Positions 6,871 through 45,454 of a stretch of 64,000 nt of DNA are shown here, piece after piece. The stretch's first letter is position 1; each line of letters begins with the position of its first letter. The stretch spans positions 1-64,000 of the forward strand of contig CANQBR010000006.1 in the NCBI GenBank assembly GCA_947589605.1. Direction: 5' to 3'. The translations under genes were made by a program, and so were the position numbers. The notes under the pieces were generated by a model, which ran no database searches, was not told where the DNA came from, and worked only from the letters and a program-made list of their open reading frames with translations. This stretch comes from an uncultured Phascolarctobacterium sp. (lineage in GTDB: Bacteria; Bacillota; Negativicutes; Acidaminococcales; Acidaminococcaceae).

Positions 6871-7010
6871 GCAAAACTCAAAGACCCACAGTCAAAGACC
6901 AAAACTCGAAAACTCACAGTCAAAGAGTAAAACTCACAGATTAAAACTCACAGACTCACAGTCACAGACTAAAATTCCAAGACTGAAACTCAAAGACTCA
7001 CGTTTAAAGT
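6871..7010. repeat. Degenerate tandem repeat, 14/28-bp period, consensus AAAACTCACAGACT(CACAGTCAAAGACT)
   Basis: aaaactc-like starts at 6873, 6901, 6929, 6943, 6971, 6986 (steps 28, 28, 14, 28, 15). Confidence 0.8.
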
Positions 7011-14137: not shown

Positions 14138-14144
14138 AGCCGTT

Positions 14145-14268
14145 GACCAAAAGTAAAAAGCAAAAACTTAAAGTCTTCGACTGAAAGTAAAAGACAAAAA
14201 CTTAAAGCTGTCGACGAAAAGCAAAAGGCCTAAACTTAAAGTCTTCGGCAAAAAGAAAAAGCAAAAGC
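14145..14268. repeat. 34-bp tandem repeat array, about 3.5 copies, containing cttaaagtcttcgac
   Basis: cttaaag starts at 14167, 14201, 14235 (exact 34-bp steps). Confidence 0.8.
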
Positions 14269-19224: not shown

Positions 19225-19450
19225 GGGCAAGGCTTTTGCGAAAAGTCACGGCAAAAAAGCTCTCGTCTTTGCAAAAGAAGTCAAGGTGAAAAAGTTCACG
19301 CCTTTCCGAAAAAGTCACGCACAAAAAGCTCTCGTCTTTTCAAAAGAAGTCGCAGCTAAAAAGCTCACGCTTTTTGAAAAGAAGTCATGAATAAAAAGCT
19401 CCGGCCTTTTTAAAAAAGTAACGGCGAAAAACTTCTCCTCTCGCAGCCGA
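19225..19450. repeat. 34-35-bp tandem repeat array, about 6 copies (aaaaagctc.cg.cttt..aaaagaagtc)
   Basis: Unit landmarks at 19259, 19294, 19328, 19363, 19398, 19432. Confidence 0.85.
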
Positions 19451-19597: not shown

Positions 19598-22500
19598 TCA
19601 ACGCAGCTTGATGCCGAAGGCCAGACTGTAGAGGACGGGCAGCACCACCAAAGTGAGCAAGGTGGCGCAGGTGAGGCCGAAGGAGATGGCCACGGCCATA
19701 GCGTTCCAAAATTGACTGGGGAACATGGGGGCCAGGCCCAGCACCGTGGTGAAGGCCGCCAGCATGATGGGACGGAAGCGGACCACCGATGCTTCCATGA
19801 CCGCTACGGCAGGCTCTTGCCCCGCTCGCAAATGTTGATCGATCTGATCCACCAGCACCACGCCGTTGCGGATGACGGTGCCGATCAACGCCAAGATGCC
19901 CAGCTGCGCCATGAAGCCGAGTTTGGAGCCGCACAGCAAAAGCCCCAAGATGACGCCGACGAGGCCCAAGGGGACGGTGGCGATGATGACGGCTATCTTG
20001 CGCAGGTCTTTCAGCTCCAGCATCAAGAGCACGATGATGATGACGGCGATGAAGGGGAGAGGAGCGAGCAATTTGCGCAGACCTTTGCGGCTGTCTTCCA
20101 AAGAGCCGCCTTCTTCGATAGTGAGGCCCGGGGGCAGCTCTTTGCGCAGTTGAGCGGCCATCTCGTAAACTTCTTCCGTCACGTCGTTGCCGGTGACTTC
20201 GGGGCCGATGGCGCCGCAGACGGTGACGGTGGGGCGCAAATCGCGCCGCCAGATGATGGTGTCTTCGCTGCCCCTCTTGATGCGGGCCACCTGAGCGAGA
20301 GGCACGGCCCCTTTGGCGGTGGGGATGCTGAAGGAAGCGAGGCTGTCCAAGTCGGCCGCTTCTTCGGGGGCGAGGCGAAAGACGATGGGGATGGCCTGAT
20401 CCCCTTCCAGATAGGTAGCCATGGTGTAGCCGCTGGCCTGAGCGTAGAGGGCGGAGGCCACGGCCTGACGGGTGAGGCCCATCTGCACCAATTTATCGTT
20501 GTCGATCTCGATGACGGCCGCATTGCTCTCTTCCAGCCAATCCAAGCGAGTTTTGGTGATGTGGGGATGCTGCTCCATCACCTGCCGCAATTTTTGCGCA
20601 TAAGTTTTCACTGCGGCGGCGTCGCTGCCCCTCACTCTCAGCATCACTTCATAAGGCTGAGGCGGGCCCAAGGGGATGGAGCGGGTGAAGGTGAGCACGT
20701 CGGGCAAACGCTCTGCCGCCAAGCGGGAGACTTTTTGCTCCAAACGCTGACGGGCGTCGATGTCTTTGGCCAGCACCACCAATTGAGCGTAATTGTCCCG
20801 AGGCTGCACCTGATCGATCACCAGCACGAAGCGGGGAGCGCTCTTGCCCACATAAGTGGAAATATTTTTCACATCCGGGTCGTCTTGTAAAAGTTTCGTC
20901 AGTTCCGAAGCGGCGGCATCGCTGCTCTTTAAAGAACTGCCTTCGGGAAGATCCAGCTCTACCAAAAGCTCCGGCCGCACGGAAGGCGGGAAGAATTCTT
21001 TTTTGACGAAGGGCAGCAGGGCCAGGCTCCCGGCAAAAAGGGCGAGGGAAAGGCCCAGCACCCCGGCTTTGTGGAGCAGAGACCAGCGTAAGAGGGTGCG
21101 GAATTTTTGATAGAAGGCGCCGTCGAAGCTGTCTTTTTTGATGACGCGGGGAACGATCCAGCTGTGGCCCAGGGCCGGGGCCAAAGTGGCGGAGACGAAC
21201 CAGCTCAAAAGCAGGGTCATGCTCACCACCGGGGCCAGAGCGGAAGCGAATTCGGAAGCGTTGCTTTTGGAAAAGGCGATGGGGGCGAAGCCCAAACAGG
21301 TGATCACAGTGCCGGTGAGCAGGGGCTTGGCGCAGGCAGCGAAGGCATAAGAAGCGGCCTTGGTCCGCTCCCAGCCTTCGGATAATTTCACTTCCATCAA
21401 TTCCACTACCACGATGGCGTCGTCCACCAGCATGCCCAAAGACAGCACCAAAGAGCCGAGAGAAACTTTGTGCAGGTCGATGCCCAAAAAGTACATGCCG
21501 CAAAAAGAGCCTAAGAGGATGAGGGGTATGCAGCAAGAGATGACGTAGCCGCAGCGGCGGCCCAAACTGAAAAGGCTCACCACCAAAACGATGACGATGG
21601 CTTCCCACAGGCTGCGGGAAAATTCGCTGATGGAAGATTCAACGACCTGACTTTGATCGGCCACTTGCTCCAGCTCAAGACCGAGAGGTAAGTCGCGGCG
21701 GGCAGCTTCTGCGGCTGCCCTTAAATTTTTCCCCAAAGCGATGTTGTTCCCGCCGTCTTCCATGGAGACGGCCAGGCCTACGGCCTTCTTGCCGTTGAAA
21801 TAAAATTTGGCGTCGGGGGGATCGGAATAGGCCCGGCGCACCTTCACCAGCGAGCCCAAACGGAAGGTGCGGCCGCCGGCGGTCAAAGGCAGGGAGGCCA
21901 ATTGTTCGGCGGCGCTCATTTCGCCGCTCAATCTCAAATAGATGTTCTTCCCGTCCACTTCCAGCATGCCGGCGGGGGAGAGGGCGGTCTGAGCTTTGAT
22001 GAGAGAGGCGAGAGAGGCGATGTCCAAGCCGAACTGCCCCAGCTTTTCGCTGTCGGCCTCCAAATAGATCTTTTCCTGCTGCACTCCCAAAAGCTCGACT
22101 TTTTTCACATCGGGGACGGCGAAAAGGCGAAGCTTGATGTGTTCGGCATAACGGCGCAGCTCCTCGCAGCTGTAATCGGCCCCGCTGAGAGCGTAGATGG
22201 TGCCGTACACATCGTCGAAGCGATCGTTGAAGAAGGGACCGATCACTCCTTCGGGCAATTTGTCCCGGCAGTCGTTCACGGTGTTGCGCAGCTCCAGCCA
22301 ATGGGCCCGCACTTTATCGTTGGGCACTTCGTCTTTGATCTGGACGGTGATGACGGCGGTGCCGGGGCGGGAGTAGCTGGTGATCTTGTCGATATCGGGA
22401 GTATTTTGGATCTGCTTCTCTAAAGCGAGAGTGACGTGTTCTTCTGTCTCCCGGGCGGTGGCCCCGGGCCAGGCGGCGCTCACCACCATCTGCTTCACCG

Positions 22501-22630
22501 TGAAGCTGGGGTCTTCCATGCGGCCCAAAGAGTTAAAAGAATAAAGGCCCATCACTAGCACGAGAAAAGCGAAAAAATAGACGATGTTCTTGTGCTTGAT
22601 GGACCACAGAGCCCAGTTGCCGCCAAACAT
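19598..22630 (-). CDS. Efflux RND transporter permease subunit
   Basis: WSIKHKNIVYFFAFLVLVMGLYSFNSLGRMEDPSF; about 1010 aa; AcrB-like repeats. Confidence 0.95.
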   Translation of the reverse strand: MFGGNWALWSIKHKNIVYFFAFLVLVMGLYSFNSLGRMEDPSFTVKQMVVSAAWPGATARETEEHVTLALEKQIQNTPDIDKITSYSRPGTAVITVQIKDEVPNDKVRAHWLELRNTVNDCRDKLPEGVIGPFFNDRFDDVYGTIYALSGADYSCEELRRYAEHIKLRLFAVPDVKKVELLGVQQEKIYLEADSEKLGQFGLDIASLASLIKAQTALSPAGMLEVDGKNIYLRLSGEMSAAEQLASLPLTAGGRTFRLGSLVKVRRAYSDPPDAKFYFNGKKAVGLAVSMEDGGNNIALGKNLRAAAEAARRDLPLGLELEQVADQSQVVESSISEFSRSLWEAIVIVLVVSLFSLGRRCGYVISCCIPLILLGSFCGMYFLGIDLHKVSLGSLVLSLGMLVDDAIVVVELMEVKLSEGWERTKAASYAFAACAKPLLTGTVITCLGFAPIAFSKSNASEFASALAPVVSMTLLLSWFVSATLAPALGHSWIVPRVIKKDSFDGAFYQKFRTLLRWSLLHKAGVLGLSLALFAGSLALLPFVKKEFFPPSVRPELLVELDLPEGSSLKSSDAAASELTKLLQDDPDVKNISTYVGKSAPRFVLVIDQVQPRDNYAQLVVLAKDIDARQRLEQKVSRLAAERLPDVLTFTRSIPLGPPQPYEVMLRVRGSDAAAVKTYAQKLRQVMEQHPHITKTRLDWLEESNAAVIEIDNDKLVQMGLTRQAVASALYAQASGYTMATYLEGDQAIPIVFRLAPEEAADLDSLASFSIPTAKGAVPLAQVARIKRGSEDTIIWRRDLRPTVTVCGAIGPEVTGNDVTEEVYEMAAQLRKELPPGLTIEEGGSLEDSRKGLRKLLAPLPFIAVIIIVLLMLELKDLRKIAVIIATVPLGLVGVILGLLLCGSKLGFMAQLGILALIGTVIRNGVVLVDQIDQHLRAGQEPAVAVMEASVVRFRPIMLAAFTTVLGLAPMFPSQFWNAMAVAISFGLTCATLLTLVVLPVLYSLAFGIKLR

Positions 22631-22631
22631 A

Positions 22632-23768
22632 TCATTCACCAGCCTTGGGAGGACGGGCCGGGCGCACGGCCTGCCCCTCGCTGAGTTTTTCCACACCGGC
22701 GGTGATCACCGTGTCTCCGGCTTTGAGGCCGGCAGTGACGGCGATCTTGTCGCCCCGATATCCTTCGCACTCCACTTCCCGCAGACGGGCCTTGCCCTCT
22801 TCTATCAGCCAGACGGCTTTTTTGCCGTTGACCTGATAAAGGGCGCCCAAAGGCAAAAGATAAGTTTGCCTGGAGGGAAGGCCGGGCTCGGGCAGGCTCA
22901 CTTTGCAGGTCATGCCCACTTTCACTTCTTGAGGAACTTCTTTCAGGCTCGCCCGTGCCCGATAAGTGCGGGTGACGCTGTCGGCGGCCGCGGCGATCTC
23001 TTTGACGGTCCCCTGCAAAGGCGAGCCGGGCAGGGCCCAAAGCTCTACGCTGCAGGGAGCGCCGGCGGCGACGCCTTGCAGATCTTTTTCCGGCAGATAA
23101 AATTGAGCTTCCAAAGTTTCGCTGCCTACCACGGTAACTATAGGCGTGCCGGAGGCCACCACTTGGCCTATTTCGGCGCCGATAGAAGCGATCTCGCCGT
23201 CCATGTCGCTTTGCAAGCGAGTGTAAGCCAACTGATTGTGGCTGGCAGCGGCCAAGGCCCGTGCTTCTTCCAAACGAGCATCGGCTGTGTCCAGTTGTAA
23301 ACTATAGCTGTCGTAAACGGCTTGGCTGACGGCTCCAGCCTCCAGCAAAGCGGCGTAGCGGCGAACATTGTCGGCCGCCACCTTTCGAGCGGCGGCGGCA
23401 GAGGCCACGGCAGCGTCGGCGGCGGCTGTCAAAGCAGAGGCATCCTGAGGATCGAGGGTGAAGAGGACTTGGCCCGCATGCACTTTATCTCCTACGTTCA
23501 CCGAGCGAGCGGTGATGCGGCCCTTGGTCTGAAAACTCAAAACGCTCTCTCTGCGGCCTCTGATCTCGCCGGGATAGCTGTTCACTGCGGCGCCTGCCTC
23601 TTCGCCTACGGTGACGGCCCGCACCAAAGGCACTTCTTTTTCGCTCACCGGGACGAAAGTGAAGACGGCAAAGAGCCGCCACAAGAGGAGCAGGACGGCA
23701 ACAGCGGCCAAAGAGCACAAAAATTTTCTGTTGCGAATGAGAGCGGTGATGTTAGCGGGCAGTTTCAT
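22632..23768 (-). CDS. Efflux RND transporter periplasmic adaptor subunit
   Basis: MKLPANITALIRNRKFLCSL TM anchor; VLSFQTKGRITARSVNVGDKVHAGQVLFTLDPQDA lipoyl-like motif. Confidence 0.93.
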   Translation of the reverse strand: MKLPANITALIRNRKFLCSLAAVAVLLLLWRLFAVFTFVPVSEKEVPLVRAVTVGEEAGAAVNSYPGEIRGRRESVLSFQTKGRITARSVNVGDKVHAGQVLFTLDPQDASALTAAADAAVASAAAARKVAADNVRRYAALLEAGAVSQAVYDSYSLQLDTADARLEEARALAAASHNQLAYTRLQSDMDGEIASIGAEIGQVVASGTPIVTVVGSETLEAQFYLPEKDLQGVAAGAPCSVELWALPGSPLQGTVKEIAAAADSVTRTYRARASLKEVPQEVKVGMTCKVSLPEPGLPSRQTYLLPLGALYQVNGKKAVWLIEEGKARLREVECEGYRGDKIAVTAGLKAGDTVITAGVEKLSEGQAVRPARPPKAGE

Positions 23769-24726
23769 GATCTTTTTTCGCAGCGGGCAGCGAATCGAGG
23801 ATGCCGTTGAGGGCGGTGAGCAGATACTGCAGTTCTTCGCCGGGAGCGAAGTTGCCCAGTTCGGCAACATATTTCTTCATCAAAAAATAAAACATGATGA
23901 TGCCTTCCACGGTGAAGGCCACGTGGGTGGGGCGCACCGAGGAGCCCAGCGCTTCTTTCTCCATAGAGCCTTCCACCAGTTCCGACATAAAAGTGTGGAC
24001 CCGGTAAAGCCGGCTGCGGACGAAGGTGGGGAAGGTGGGCTGAGGGCTGACCAATTCTCTGTAGATGAGGTGCAGGCAGTGGGGCTGCTCTTCCTGAAAG
24101 CGGGCCAGGGCCAGCACGTAACGGTGGAGTTTGTCGATGGGGGCCAAGTCCTCTTTGTCCAGTTCTTCCATGATGCGGGCGAGGGCATCGCTCTGTCGGT
24201 TGAGGACCGTTTGATATAGCTCCTTCTTGTCGCCGAAATAATAGTAGATCAGAGCGCTGTTCACGTAGCCGGCGGCGGCGATGTCTTTGATGGAGACAGC
24301 GCTGAAAGATTGCTGGGCGAAGAGGGCGGTGGCGGCGTTCAGGATCCTTTCGTAATTGCCGCGGTCGGCAGAGGGCCCCCTGCCGCGGCGCTTCTTTTTG
24401 GGAACTGCTTTAGTTCTGAGAGCCGTCTTGCTTTTGGCTGTCGTTTTCCCTTTGAGAGCCGTCTTGCTTTTGGCGGCGGTCTTCTTTTTGAGAGAAGTCT
24501 TGCTTCTGGCAGCGGTCTTGGCTTTCGAAGAGGGTTTCTCTTTGACAGCGGTCTTCTTTTTGAGAGAGGCCTTGCTTTTGGCAGGAGCCTTGGCTTTCGG
24601 CTCTGTCTTTGCGGCGGCAGAGGTCTTCTCTTCGAGAGGGGTCGTGTTCGCGGGAGCGCTCTTTTCTTGGTCGAGAGAGCTTTTTTTCATGCTCACCATT
24701 TTAAGTCCGGCCCTCCTTTTCGACAC
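23752..24726 (-). CDS. TetR/AcrR-family regulator with Lys/Ala-rich N-terminal extension
   Basis: YERILNAATALFAQQSFSAVSIKDIAAAGYVNSALIYYYFGDKKELY HTH; N-terminal SKTALKGKTTAKSKTALRTKAVPKKKRRGRG repeats. Confidence 0.9.
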   Translation of the reverse strand: MSKRRAGLKMVSMKKSSLDQEKSAPANTTPLEEKTSAAAKTEPKAKAPAKSKASLKKKTAVKEKPSSKAKTAARSKTSLKKKTAAKSKTALKGKTTAKSKTALRTKAVPKKKRRGRGPSADRGNYERILNAATALFAQQSFSAVSIKDIAAAGYVNSALIYYYFGDKKELYQTVLNRQSDALARIMEELDKEDLAPIDKLHRYVLALARFQEEQPHCLHLIYRELVSPQPTFPTFVRSRLYRVHTFMSELVEGSMEKEALGSSVRPTHVAFTVEGIIMFYFLMKKYVAELGNFAPGEELQYLLTALNGILDSLPAAKKDHETAR

Positions 24727-24908
24727 TTCATCGCTTTTTATTATACATCATCCGCAAAATATTTACTACTGTGAAGAAAGAGGGCGGCGAGACGAGCGGC
24801 AGCTTCGCAAAGCAGACTGCTATATCTCAGACCGAGATGAAAATACGACTACGGTGATCTTTCGAAGTCTTCCGTAGCAGACAAAAACGAAAACTTTTTC
24901 CCAAAGGA

Positions 24909-24939
24909 AAAGGGCACCGGTCTGCGGCCGCTGCCCTTT
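24909..24939 (-). terminator. Terminator hairpin downstream of hydF
   Basis: AAAGGGCA...TGCCCTTT. Confidence 0.6.
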
Positions 24940-24982
24940 GCATCTTCTTGAAATATTTTGTTGAAAAAATTTCTCCCGTTCT

Positions 24983-33311: not shown

Positions 33312-33661
33312 CGGCCCCTGCCGGCCGAGAAGCCCGTCTCATAGCCGCACTGGGCTTGGCCCAGCGGGCCGGCAAAGCAGTCGGCGGCGAGACGGCGGTG
33401 AGAGAAGCCTTAGCCAAAGGCAAGGGCAAGCTCCTTTTGCTGGCGGCCGATGCGGCGACTGCCCGGGTCGAAGGAGCCAAGGCCCTGGCTGCCGAAAAAA
33501 ACGTGCCCTGCCTGATCGGTCTAGCCAAAGAGACTATGGGCCGAGCCGTCGGCAAAGGCGAAAGAGCGGTGCTTTTGATTTGCGACGGTGCCTTCGCCAA
33601 GATGGCAGCGGCGGCGCTGGAAGGCGAAGAGAGCTCCTTCGAAAAACAAAGCGGTAAATGA
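33308..33661 (+). CDS. L7Ae-family ribosomal protein YlxQ
   Basis: [38 protein letters not shown]; between ylxR and infB. Confidence 0.88.
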
Positions 33662-33686
33662 CCCAAGTGTCACAGGGGGTGGATAT

Positions 33687-36600
33687 ATGGCAAAACGTAT
33701 TTACGAAGTGGCTAAGGAACTGGGAAAACCGGTGAACGAGCTGCTGGATATTTTAAAGAAGCACAAGATCGACAAGACCAATTTCAGCTCTGCCAGCGAG
33801 CGGGACATCCAGCTGTTGAGAAACGCTTACACTACGAAAGTGGTGAGGAGAGTCACGGCCGTAAGGATAGGCGGCGTAGACGTAGACAGAAAAGACGGCC
33901 AACTGCGGGGGCCTGCCGCAACGGCTCAGGCTCAGCCTGCAACGAGAGCGGAGAGGAGAGTCACGGCCGTGAGGATAGGCGGCGTGGACGTAGACAGGAA
34001 AGACGGTCAACTGCGGGGGCCTGCCGCAACGGCTCAGGCTCAGCCTAAACCGCAGCCGAAAACTGCCGCACCTTCTCCTCAGGCACAGCCCGGAGGGACG
34101 GCTCAAGCTAAAGAGCAGGCGCCGGCTGCAGCCAAACCTCAAGCGACGGCAGCCCCTCAGCCTAAACCGCAACAGCCGGCTGTGCCCCAGCCAAAACCTC
34201 AGGCAGCTGCTGCGACTCAGGCCAGACCTCAACAGCCGACGGCGCCGCAAGCCAGACCTCAGGCCCAAGCGAGCGCTCAGCCTAAGCCGCAAACTGCGGC
34301 GGCAGCGCAGCCCCAGGCACCGGCAGCTGCAGCACCTCAAGCAAAAACTCAGCAGGCAGATGCACCTCAGCCTAAACCTCAGCAAGCTGCTGCGCCTCAG
34401 CCTAAACCTCAGACAACGGCACCTCAGTCTAAATCTCAGCAACCGACTGCACCGCAGGCTAAGCCTCAACAAGCGGCTGCGCCTCAGGCAAGGGCACAAG
34501 CACAGCCTGCCGCACCTGCTCAGCCCAAAGCTCAGCCTGCTCCCGCTCAGCCCAGAGCGGCAACCGCAGCTCCACAAACCAGAAGTCAATACGGAGGAGC
34601 AGGTCAGCCTCGGCCCCAGGGCCAGCGGCCTCAGGGGAGCAATAACCCTCAGGCACCCCGACCTCAAGGCGCTCAAGGCTACGGGCAGCGACCCGGCGGC
34701 TCTCGCCCCGCTTACGGCCAAGGAGGACGGCCGCAGGGCCAGGGCGGCGCTTACGGCCAAGGCCCCAGGCCCCAAGGTGCAGGTCAAAGACGAGACGGCC
34801 AAGGGCCCAGGCCCGGCGGTTTTGCGCCCCGACCTCAGGGAGCTCCCCCTCAGGGACGGAGCGGCGGCCAAGGAGCCAGACCTGCCGGCGGAGCAAGGCC
34901 CGGAGCAGGCGCTCTGCCTAAGGCCGAGAACAGGCCCAGAAGGCCGGATGCCGCCAGAGGCGGCAGGGACGAAAGGCGGGAAGGCGGCAAGAATGCCGGC
35001 AAGTCCCGCAAAAACATCAGTCCCGTTAAGGGGAGCTACGCTACCAAGGAGAGCAGGCCCAACCGCAGCGCCGGTCATCAAATGCCTGTCAACCGCGCTC
35101 CCAAGAAGGGCCCGGTAAGACCGATAGCGGCAGAGACCGTCGTTCGACCCGCTTCCGTAGAAGTAGGGGAGACCATCAGCGTACAGAATTTCGCCAAACT
35201 GATCAAACGGGAAGTCAACGAAGTCATCAAGACCCTCTTCCTTTTAGGTCAGATGGTCACTATCAATCAGGATATAGATTTTGAGACCGCCCAGCTCATC
35301 GGCACGGAATTCGAAGTGGAAGTGCTGCCTGCTCCCAGAGAGGAAGACCCCACGGAGATACCTCCCGTGGAGGATCCGGAAGAACTGCGCACCCCGCGGC
35401 CCCCGGTCATCACCGTTATGGGCCACGTGGATCACGGCAAAACTTCTATTTTGGATGCCATCCGCAAGACCAACGTGACGGCCAGAGAGGCCGGCGGCAT
35501 CACTCAGCACATCGGCGCTTACAAGGTGAATTACCAGGGCAAGCAGATCGTCTTTCTGGATACCCCCGGTCATGAAGCTTTCACTGCCATGCGGGCCAGA
35601 GGCGCACAGGTCACCGATATCGCCATTTTGGTGGTGGCGGCGGACGACGGCGTTATGCCTCAGACCATTGAAGCCATCAACCATGCCAAAGCCGCCAAGG
35701 TGCCCATCATCGTGGCCATCAATAAGATGGACAGGGCCGGGGCCAATCCGGATCACGTAAAACAGCAGCTGGCCGAACACGAACTGATCCCCGAGGACTG
35801 GGGCGGCGACACCATCATGGTGCCCTGTTCGGCCTATACCAAAGAAGGCATCACCGACTTGCTGGACATGATCCTCTTGGTGGCCGAGGTGCAGGAATTG
35901 AAGGCCAACGCCGATCTGCCGGCCCACGGCACCATCATCGAAGCTCAGTTGGATAAGGGCCGCGGCCCCGTGGCCACCGTGCTCATCCAGCGGGGCACCC
36001 TGCGGGTGGGCGACACCATCATCGCCGGCACCTGCTTCGGTAAGGTGCGGGCCATGATCAACGATCGAGGCGAGAAGGTGAAGAAGGCGACTCCCGCCAC
36101 GCCGGTGGAAGTGCTGGGTCTGAGCGATGTGCCGGAAGCCGGCGACATTTTGGACTGCACCGAAGAGAGGATAGCCCGCTCCGTAGCCGCCAAACGGTCG
36201 GCGCAAAAGAGAGAGAAAGAGATCAAAGCTCCTTCCAAGGTATCTTTGGACGATATCTATCAGCGCATCAAAGACGGCGAGCTGAAAGAGCTCAACATCG
36301 TGGTGAAGGCGGACGTGCAGGGCACCATCGAAGCTTTGAAGGCTTCTTTGCAGAAGATCAAGAACGAAGAAGTGAAGGTAGTGGTGGTCCACGCAGGCGT
36401 AGGCGCCATCACCGAGTCGGACGTGATGCTGGCTTCAGCGGCCAACGCTTTGATCATCGGCTTCAATGTGCGGCCCGATGCCAACGCCCGCAAGGCGGCG
36501 GAAACTTCCAAAGTGGACCTGCGCACTTACAGGGTCATCTACGATGCCCTCAACGACGTGGAAGCGGCCATCAAAGGCATGCTGGCGCCTAAATTCACCG

Positions 36601-36893
36601 AAGTGGTGCAGGGCCGGGTAGAAGTAAGGCAGATCATCACCATCATGAAGCTGCTGGTGGCCGGCTGCTACGTATTGGAAGGCAAGGTCACCAACAATTC
36701 CAAGGTGCGCATCATCCGCGACGGCATCGTGCTGCCGGTGGAAGATCAGGTAGAATCGCTCCGCCGTTTCAAAGACGACGTGAAAGAAGTGCAGCAGGGC
36801 TTTGAATGCGGCATCACTCTCTCCAAGTTCAGAGACTTGAAAGAGGGAGATATCTTCGAAGTTTACGCCATGGAAGAAGTGGCGGCGGAATAA
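33687..36893 (+). CDS. infB: Translation initiation factor IF-2
   Basis: [50 protein letters not shown]. Confidence 0.98.
33846..34046 (+). repeat. 108-bp-period tandem duplication inside infB
   Basis: 33846-33938 and 33954-34046 match over 93 bp with 4 differences seen by eye. Confidence 0.92.
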
Positions 36894-43349: not shown

Positions 43350-43540
43350 CGCCTTGGGGACTTTTTGCAAAGGGGAGAAGAGTGCGACGGTCACGTGTAA
43401 AATCAAAGACATTTTGAAAAAGTCAGAGGTGCTTGATAGTCACGTGTAAAATCTCCGGCTTTTTTGAAAAAGTGAGAGGTGCTCAACGGTCGTGTGTAAG
43501 ATCCGCAGACTTTTTGCAAAAAGCGAGAGGCGTTTCACGA
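43350..43540. repeat. 49-50-bp tandem repeat array, 3 main copies, core (g)tcacgtgtaaaatc...ctttttgaaaaagt.agagg
   Basis: cacgtgtaaaatc-type landmarks at 43392, 43441, 43491. Confidence 0.85.
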
Positions 43541-45338: not shown

Positions 45339-45343
45339 TTAGT

Positions 45344-45454
45344 TTGGAGTGTGAAGTGTGGAGTGTGGAGTTAAGGAATGCACAGCACACTTCCTTCCCC
45401 TTGCACATCGTACCGATCGTGTCAGTTGTGCCGGGGAAGCCCGGGACAAGCTCA
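45344..45454. repeat. Second copy of the heptamer / GAAGCCCGGGACAAGCTCA mosaic repeat
   Basis: 19-bp exact match 221-239 = 45436-45454; ttccttcc landmark 45 bp upstream of it in both copies (176 and 45391). Confidence 0.8.

Follow-up and report, generated by a model that had tools for sequence, protein, structure and literature searches.

A TetR regulator heading an RND efflux operon in Phascolarctobacterium carries a long histone H1-like lysine-rich N-terminal tail

The tetR gene of the window, which is the whole 64,000-nucleotide stretch of DNA analysed from a gut Phascolarctobacterium, encodes a TetR regulator whose helix-turn-helix (HTH) is preceded by a linker-histone-H1-like tail of 107 residues. 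The tail is encoded in frame, and no usual start codon allows it to be bypassed while the HTH is still made. The tailed protein is confirmed and, although unusual for its family, it extends a known theme, that of the basic arms of TetR proteins and the H1-like tails of bacterial proteins. A role of the tail as an electrostatic arm for DNA binding and search, carried by an autoregulatory efflux repressor, is favoured with modest confidence and by analogy with known systems. A partial literature search found no description of a TetR protein with a long H1-like tail.

The TetR protein and its operon

The open frame around tetR comprises 324 codons on the minus strand (23752–24726), and the likely start of the gene is the ATG at 24699, which features an AAGGAGG and a TATAAT on its 5' side, both identical in the sister species. 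The sister species is an uncultured Phascolarctobacterium-like MAG (L031/G001, 92% identity) that shares the tail, with no difference in length. TetR_N and CecR_C are the only domains found in the protein with Pfam. The TetR_N match (PF00440, 1.2e-12) is over the curated cut-off and places the protein in the TetR family, and the CecR_C match in the C-terminal part is weak but over its cut-off (2e-6, 28.3 bits vs 24). The Foldseek list for the predicted model is headed by TetR structures, with moderate confidence in the C-terminal part of the model, and together with the CecR_C score this points to the all-helical ligand-binding C-terminal domain of the TetR family. An identity as RefZ (NF037937) was rejected, as the protein scores 75 bits vs a curated cut-off of 180. 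Frames of 154 and 173 residues on the plus strand of the same DNA were also considered as an antisense gene, however, these are a Leu-rich mirror of the Lys repeat and nothing supports them.

The tetR gene heads a tetR–adaptor–RND permease operon, and its stop overlaps the likely start of the adaptor gene. Since tetR is first in the operon and overlaps the adaptor in this way, the protein is expected, as is usual for the TetR family, to repress the pump operon and with it its own gene. An earlier note, made from the letters alone, had described the protein as a TetR repressor of RND efflux, with a Lys/Ala/Ser tail before its HTH that resembles those of H1 and AlgP. The domain matches and the gene order agree with the first part of this description, and the tail proved to be real, in frame and on the minus strand. 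The 24396–24650 given for it fell short, however, as the tail proper is longer (residues 1–107; Table 1).

Table 1. Coordinates of tetR, its tail and the adjoining operon features in the window
Feature	Position	Strand	Basis
H1-like Lys/Ala/Ser/Thr tail, residues 1–107, net charge +29	24379–24699	−	composition; pLDDT
Twelve hexad units KxKTAx, residues 29–100	24400–24615	−	K/R at two fixed positions per hexad
TetR_N helix-turn-helix domain, residues 119–163	24211–24345	−	Pfam; pLDDT about 86–96
tetR gene, 315 aa	23752–24699	−	ORF, ATG start 24699; Pfam; full-length match in sister species
Shine-Dalgarno AAGGAGG	24712–24718	−	12-nt spacing to ATG; sequence, same in sister species
−10-like TATAAT	24740–24745	−	within a stretch without differences between the species
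RND periplasmic adaptor (membrane fusion protein)	22632–23768	−	TIGR01730 1.2e-75; synteny; start overlaps tetR end
RND efflux permease (ACR_tran)	19598–22696	−	PF00873 4.7e-150; synteny

Composition, periodicity and predicted disorder of the tail

The tail contains 30 Lys, 19 Ala, 13 Ser and 13 Thr (residues 1–107), which gives the net charge of +29, and the positive residues of its hexads sit at hexad positions 1 and 3. The autocorrelation of the tail protein reaches 0.40 at a lag of 6 residues and 0.53 at a lag of 12, and the maximum obtained with shuffled tails averages 0.28 and is 0.40 in the highest of 2000 shuffles; the periodicity thus exceeds what composition would give. The underlying DNA is repetitive as well, as had been pointed out before, with a Tandem Repeats Finder array at 24417–24638 (periods 18/36/72). 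The tail is predicted to be disordered, with AlphaFold2 giving pLDDT < 50 and no secondary structure for residues 10–108 and block means of about 86–96 for the DNA-binding domain. By composition, periodicity and pLDDT it is a Lys/Ala-rich disordered repeat of the kind known from AlgP/PhaF or from linker histone H1. The sequence of the tailed TetR features no KPAA units, and neither the N-terminal domain of AlgP nor a globular H1 domain is found in it.

A search of the source genome (G000) with a K-x-K-x-A-x-K pattern for a second Lys/Ala tail located tight clusters (within 200 bp) only at tetR, among the matches listed, and ten further regions with pattern matches contain no Lys/Ala tail by the filter used. 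An AT-hook in the tail was rejected: KKKRRGRGP in the window corresponds to KKKLRRRGP in the sister species, and the GRP core with basic flanks is not conserved.

Translation of the tail

There is no in-frame ATG, GTG or TTG between codon 4 and codon 146 of tetR in either tailed species. The first usual start codon past codon 4 is codon 146, which already lies within the HTH, and near the HTH only ATC119 and CTG120 could act as alternative starts, either of which would cut into the first helix. The tail must therefore be translated to make the HTH when one of the usual start codons is used, and the start just before the HTH that the earlier note had considered is excluded for these codons in both species. 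That the true translation nevertheless begins beside the HTH, so that the tail is never made, is scarcely credible: orthologues do begin close to the conserved domain, but the usual start codons are missing there and the Shine-Dalgarno sequence and promoter lie upstream of codon 1, where they are conserved in the sister species.

Distribution of the tail

The genome collection contains a single further member of the genus, the sister MAG, so that two tailed sequences were compared. The two species show no indel in the 945 nt of tetR, and the suggested variation in tail length is thus not seen between them. In the sister species and in six other genomes of five genera, tetR is likewise followed by the adaptor and the RND permease; the tail-less proteins of these other genera are therefore syntenic orthologues. 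The TetR body is matched at E ≤ 1e-25 in 24 of the 59 family genomes (the two tailed ones included), mostly by frames of about 196–263 residues. As anticipated from the way in which TetR proteins usually begin near the HTH, the inspected orthologues start about 5–17 codons before the aligned body; those at L107 and L113 have extra ATGs further upstream, where the sequence is hydrophobic and non-homologous. Searches with a tail-plus-HTH query, which are weak for low-complexity sequence, covered 381 genomes of the class (E ≤ 1e-13) and 399 of the phylum (E ≤ 1e-11) and yielded no TetR with such a tail beyond the genus. Since the tail is present in both available members of the genus, is absent from the syntenic orthologues and was not found in the wider genomes at this sensitivity, it is, judged by sequence comparison, a genus-level addition to TetR.

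Comparison with known systems

E. coli RutR is among the sequence and fold relatives of the tailed TetR. Like it, RutR is a TetR protein with lysines in an unstructured segment that precedes the HTH, and this segment adds to operator binding (PMC10891134). Deletion of this 12-residue tail, which its authors call 'histone-like', cuts operator affinity 11–17-fold, and acetylation of its two lysines, K7 and K11, leads to weaker DNA binding (PMC10891134). The RutR tail has ~12 residues and two key lysines, however, whereas the tail described here has 107 residues, a hexad repeat and 30 lysines. The AlgP/PhaF proteins of Pseudomonas share with the tail a long, disordered, H1-tail-like Lys/Ala repeat of low complexity; these repeats bind DNA, as has been reported for AlgP KPAA-repeat peptides (PMC9239181). 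In AlgP/PhaF, however, the repeats are KPAA units located at the C-terminus of non-TetR proteins and vary in number between isolates (PMC9239181), whereas the units here are KxKTAx and stand at the N-terminus of an HTH regulator.

CecR-like TetR proteins from Hyphomicrobium and Betaproteobacteria (L038, L056, L058, L062) also feature about 35–60 basic residues before the HTH, but these extensions are shorter, Arg/Pro-rich and without a hexad repeat, and they belong to a different lineage. Across the CecR-like TetR proteins L035–L067 (Hyphomicrobium, Betaproteobacteria and relatives), N-terminal extensions of 35–60 residues are rich in Arg, Lys and Pro and often end in a GRP-type motif. The tail joins the protein beside its HTH, the site at which other TetR proteins contact DNA through short basic arms. 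The efflux-pump TetR repressor SimR reportedly uses a flexible N-terminal extension to bind the minor groove (Le et al. 2011, cited in PMC5812520). Unlike the tail here, the SimR extension is short and lacks an H1-like repeat. A long H1-like tail phased in hexads, carried here by a local efflux regulator, unites the short basic arms of TetR proteins with the H1-like tails of bacterial nucleoid proteins. Additionally, the tail-less orthologues in the same operon form a natural before/after pair for relating a disordered cationic arm to affinity, search and specificity.

Proposed function of the tail and tests for selection

By analogy with RutR and AlgP, a long Lys tail beside the HTH would be expected to provide electrostatic affinity and salt sensitivity. 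In the favoured mechanism, one genus has gained a 107-residue disordered cationic N-terminal arm adjoining the HTH of a TetR/CecR-type regulator. The regulator dimer would bind its own promoter and control the tetR–adaptor–RND operon, and its two arms, with about +58 per dimer, would contact neighbouring DNA through backbone electrostatics. These contacts may raise affinity and residence and speed the search for the operator. A strong salt dependence of binding is predicted, and lysine modification might serve to tune it. Against this mechanism stand the orthologues that head the operon with no tail, and the operator search, which identified none in the tailed genus. The earlier note had proposed compaction or salt-sensitive binding; the salt-sensitive, electrostatic part seems the most likely by analogy, whereas compaction is unsupported, the regulator being operon-linked.

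The main rival, possible but distinctly less probable, is that the tail arose recently by expansion of a tandem repeat and is tolerated as a soluble, disordered and terminal segment with little or no function. The restriction to one genus and the minisatellite-like DNA (periods 18/36/72) fit such an expansion, as does the abundance of repeats in this lineage, seen elsewhere in the window in arrays between genes and in the N-terminus of IF-2. So does the dN of the tail, about three times that of the body (tail: dN 0.072, dS 0.166; body: dN 0.022, dS 0.090). The dN/dS of the tail, 0.43 with 0.30 in the repeat region, vs 0.25 for the body, is counted in favour of the functional arm. However, the tail shows no indel between the species, unlike the intergenic tandem array downstream of the pump (19241), which has indels between the same two genomes. 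The repeat region also has fewer amino-acid changes than neutral simulations with random substitutions (11 observed vs 15.5, P 0.025), and the whole tail does not differ significantly from them (P 0.10). Additionally, every in-phase Lys/Arg is retained in the sister species (0 of 23 lost vs 3.6 expected under neutral simulation, P 0.011). Two in-phase positions of the hexads are swapped from Arg to Lys, and the two lysines that are lost, 48 and 72, are both at a variable hexad position. The P value of 0.011 reads as suggestive because the Lys-phase test was devised post hoc, with the pattern already seen, and the selection tests are weak because only two tailed sequences are available.

Operator and recognition helix

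In many class relatives of the tailed TetR, the gene of the regulator is preceded by a palindrome, TTAATC-N4-GATTAA, and about 16 distinct loci among them score at least 10/12. Where a −10 is visible in the motif-bearing relatives, it usually lies between the palindrome and the Shine-Dalgarno sequence. The palindrome stands as a candidate operator before tetR at L003, L004, L024, L026, L028, L029, L081 and L082. Before tetR in the tailed genus (24700–24982 in the window, and the sister species) the best match is 8/12, which is shuffle level. The word TTAATN6ATTAA has no copy in the source genome, one site in the sister genome and 4–16 sites in six other family genomes, a rarity to which base composition may add, as the reversed control word is also rare in both tailed genomes. 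The recognition helix reads SALISYYFG or near in aligned family orthologues, and SALIYYYFG in the tailed genus only.

The helix change and the loss of the operator of the relatives would allow a non-specific arm to supply much of the binding energy. It is doubtful, however, that the tail came with such rewired DNA recognition, the cationic arm replacing the binding energy of a strong operator: several tail-less genera also have no clear TTAATC-N4-GATTAA motif, which makes any link between operator loss and tail gain hypothetical. If true, it would be a natural case of sequence specificity traded for electrostatics. At 138 nt upstream lies another palindrome, TCTCGGTCCGAGA, which has no mismatch in the sister species but is mismatched in the window, and no operator is claimed there.

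Possible roles in nucleoid association or acetylation sensing

The composition of the tail, like that of H1 and AlgP tails, would also suit a nucleoid-associated or compacting regulator with broad DNA binding. This is improbable, as the tail is fused to the HTH regulator of a pump operon, an HU is already encoded in the genome and there is no sign of high abundance. About as improbable is an acetylation sensor, in which acetyl-phosphate or an acetyltransferase would neutralise lysines and release the repressor, as proposed for RutR; the 30 lysines and the lowered DNA affinity of RutR acetylated at K7/K11 (PMC10891134) are in its favour. However, the search for a sirtuin (PF02146) found none in the two tailed genomes (G000 and G001), although it was positive for 10 of 14 controls. 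Removal of acetyl groups by a CobB-type enzyme, as for RutR, is thus unavailable, and a reversible switch of the RutR type is not directly transferable.

Other repeats in the window

A-rich intergenic tandem arrays occur at 6873–7001, 14138–14266, 19241–19431 and 43390–43530; their repeat periods are close to 14/42, 34/68, 35/69 and 50 bp. Those at 19241 and 43390 resemble each other more than shuffles do (z 6.6), and the former diverges with indels in the sister species. A derivation of the tail from these arrays was rejected, as local-alignment scores do not exceed those of dinucleotide shuffles (lowest P 0.025 in eight comparisons). IF-2 (33588–36893) features a Gln/Pro/Ala-rich repetitive N-terminal region of roughly 300 residues with a near-perfect 108-bp duplication at 33834–34046. 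A 7-bp tandem unit, AGTGTGG, is present at two distant places, 81–118 and 45341–45371.
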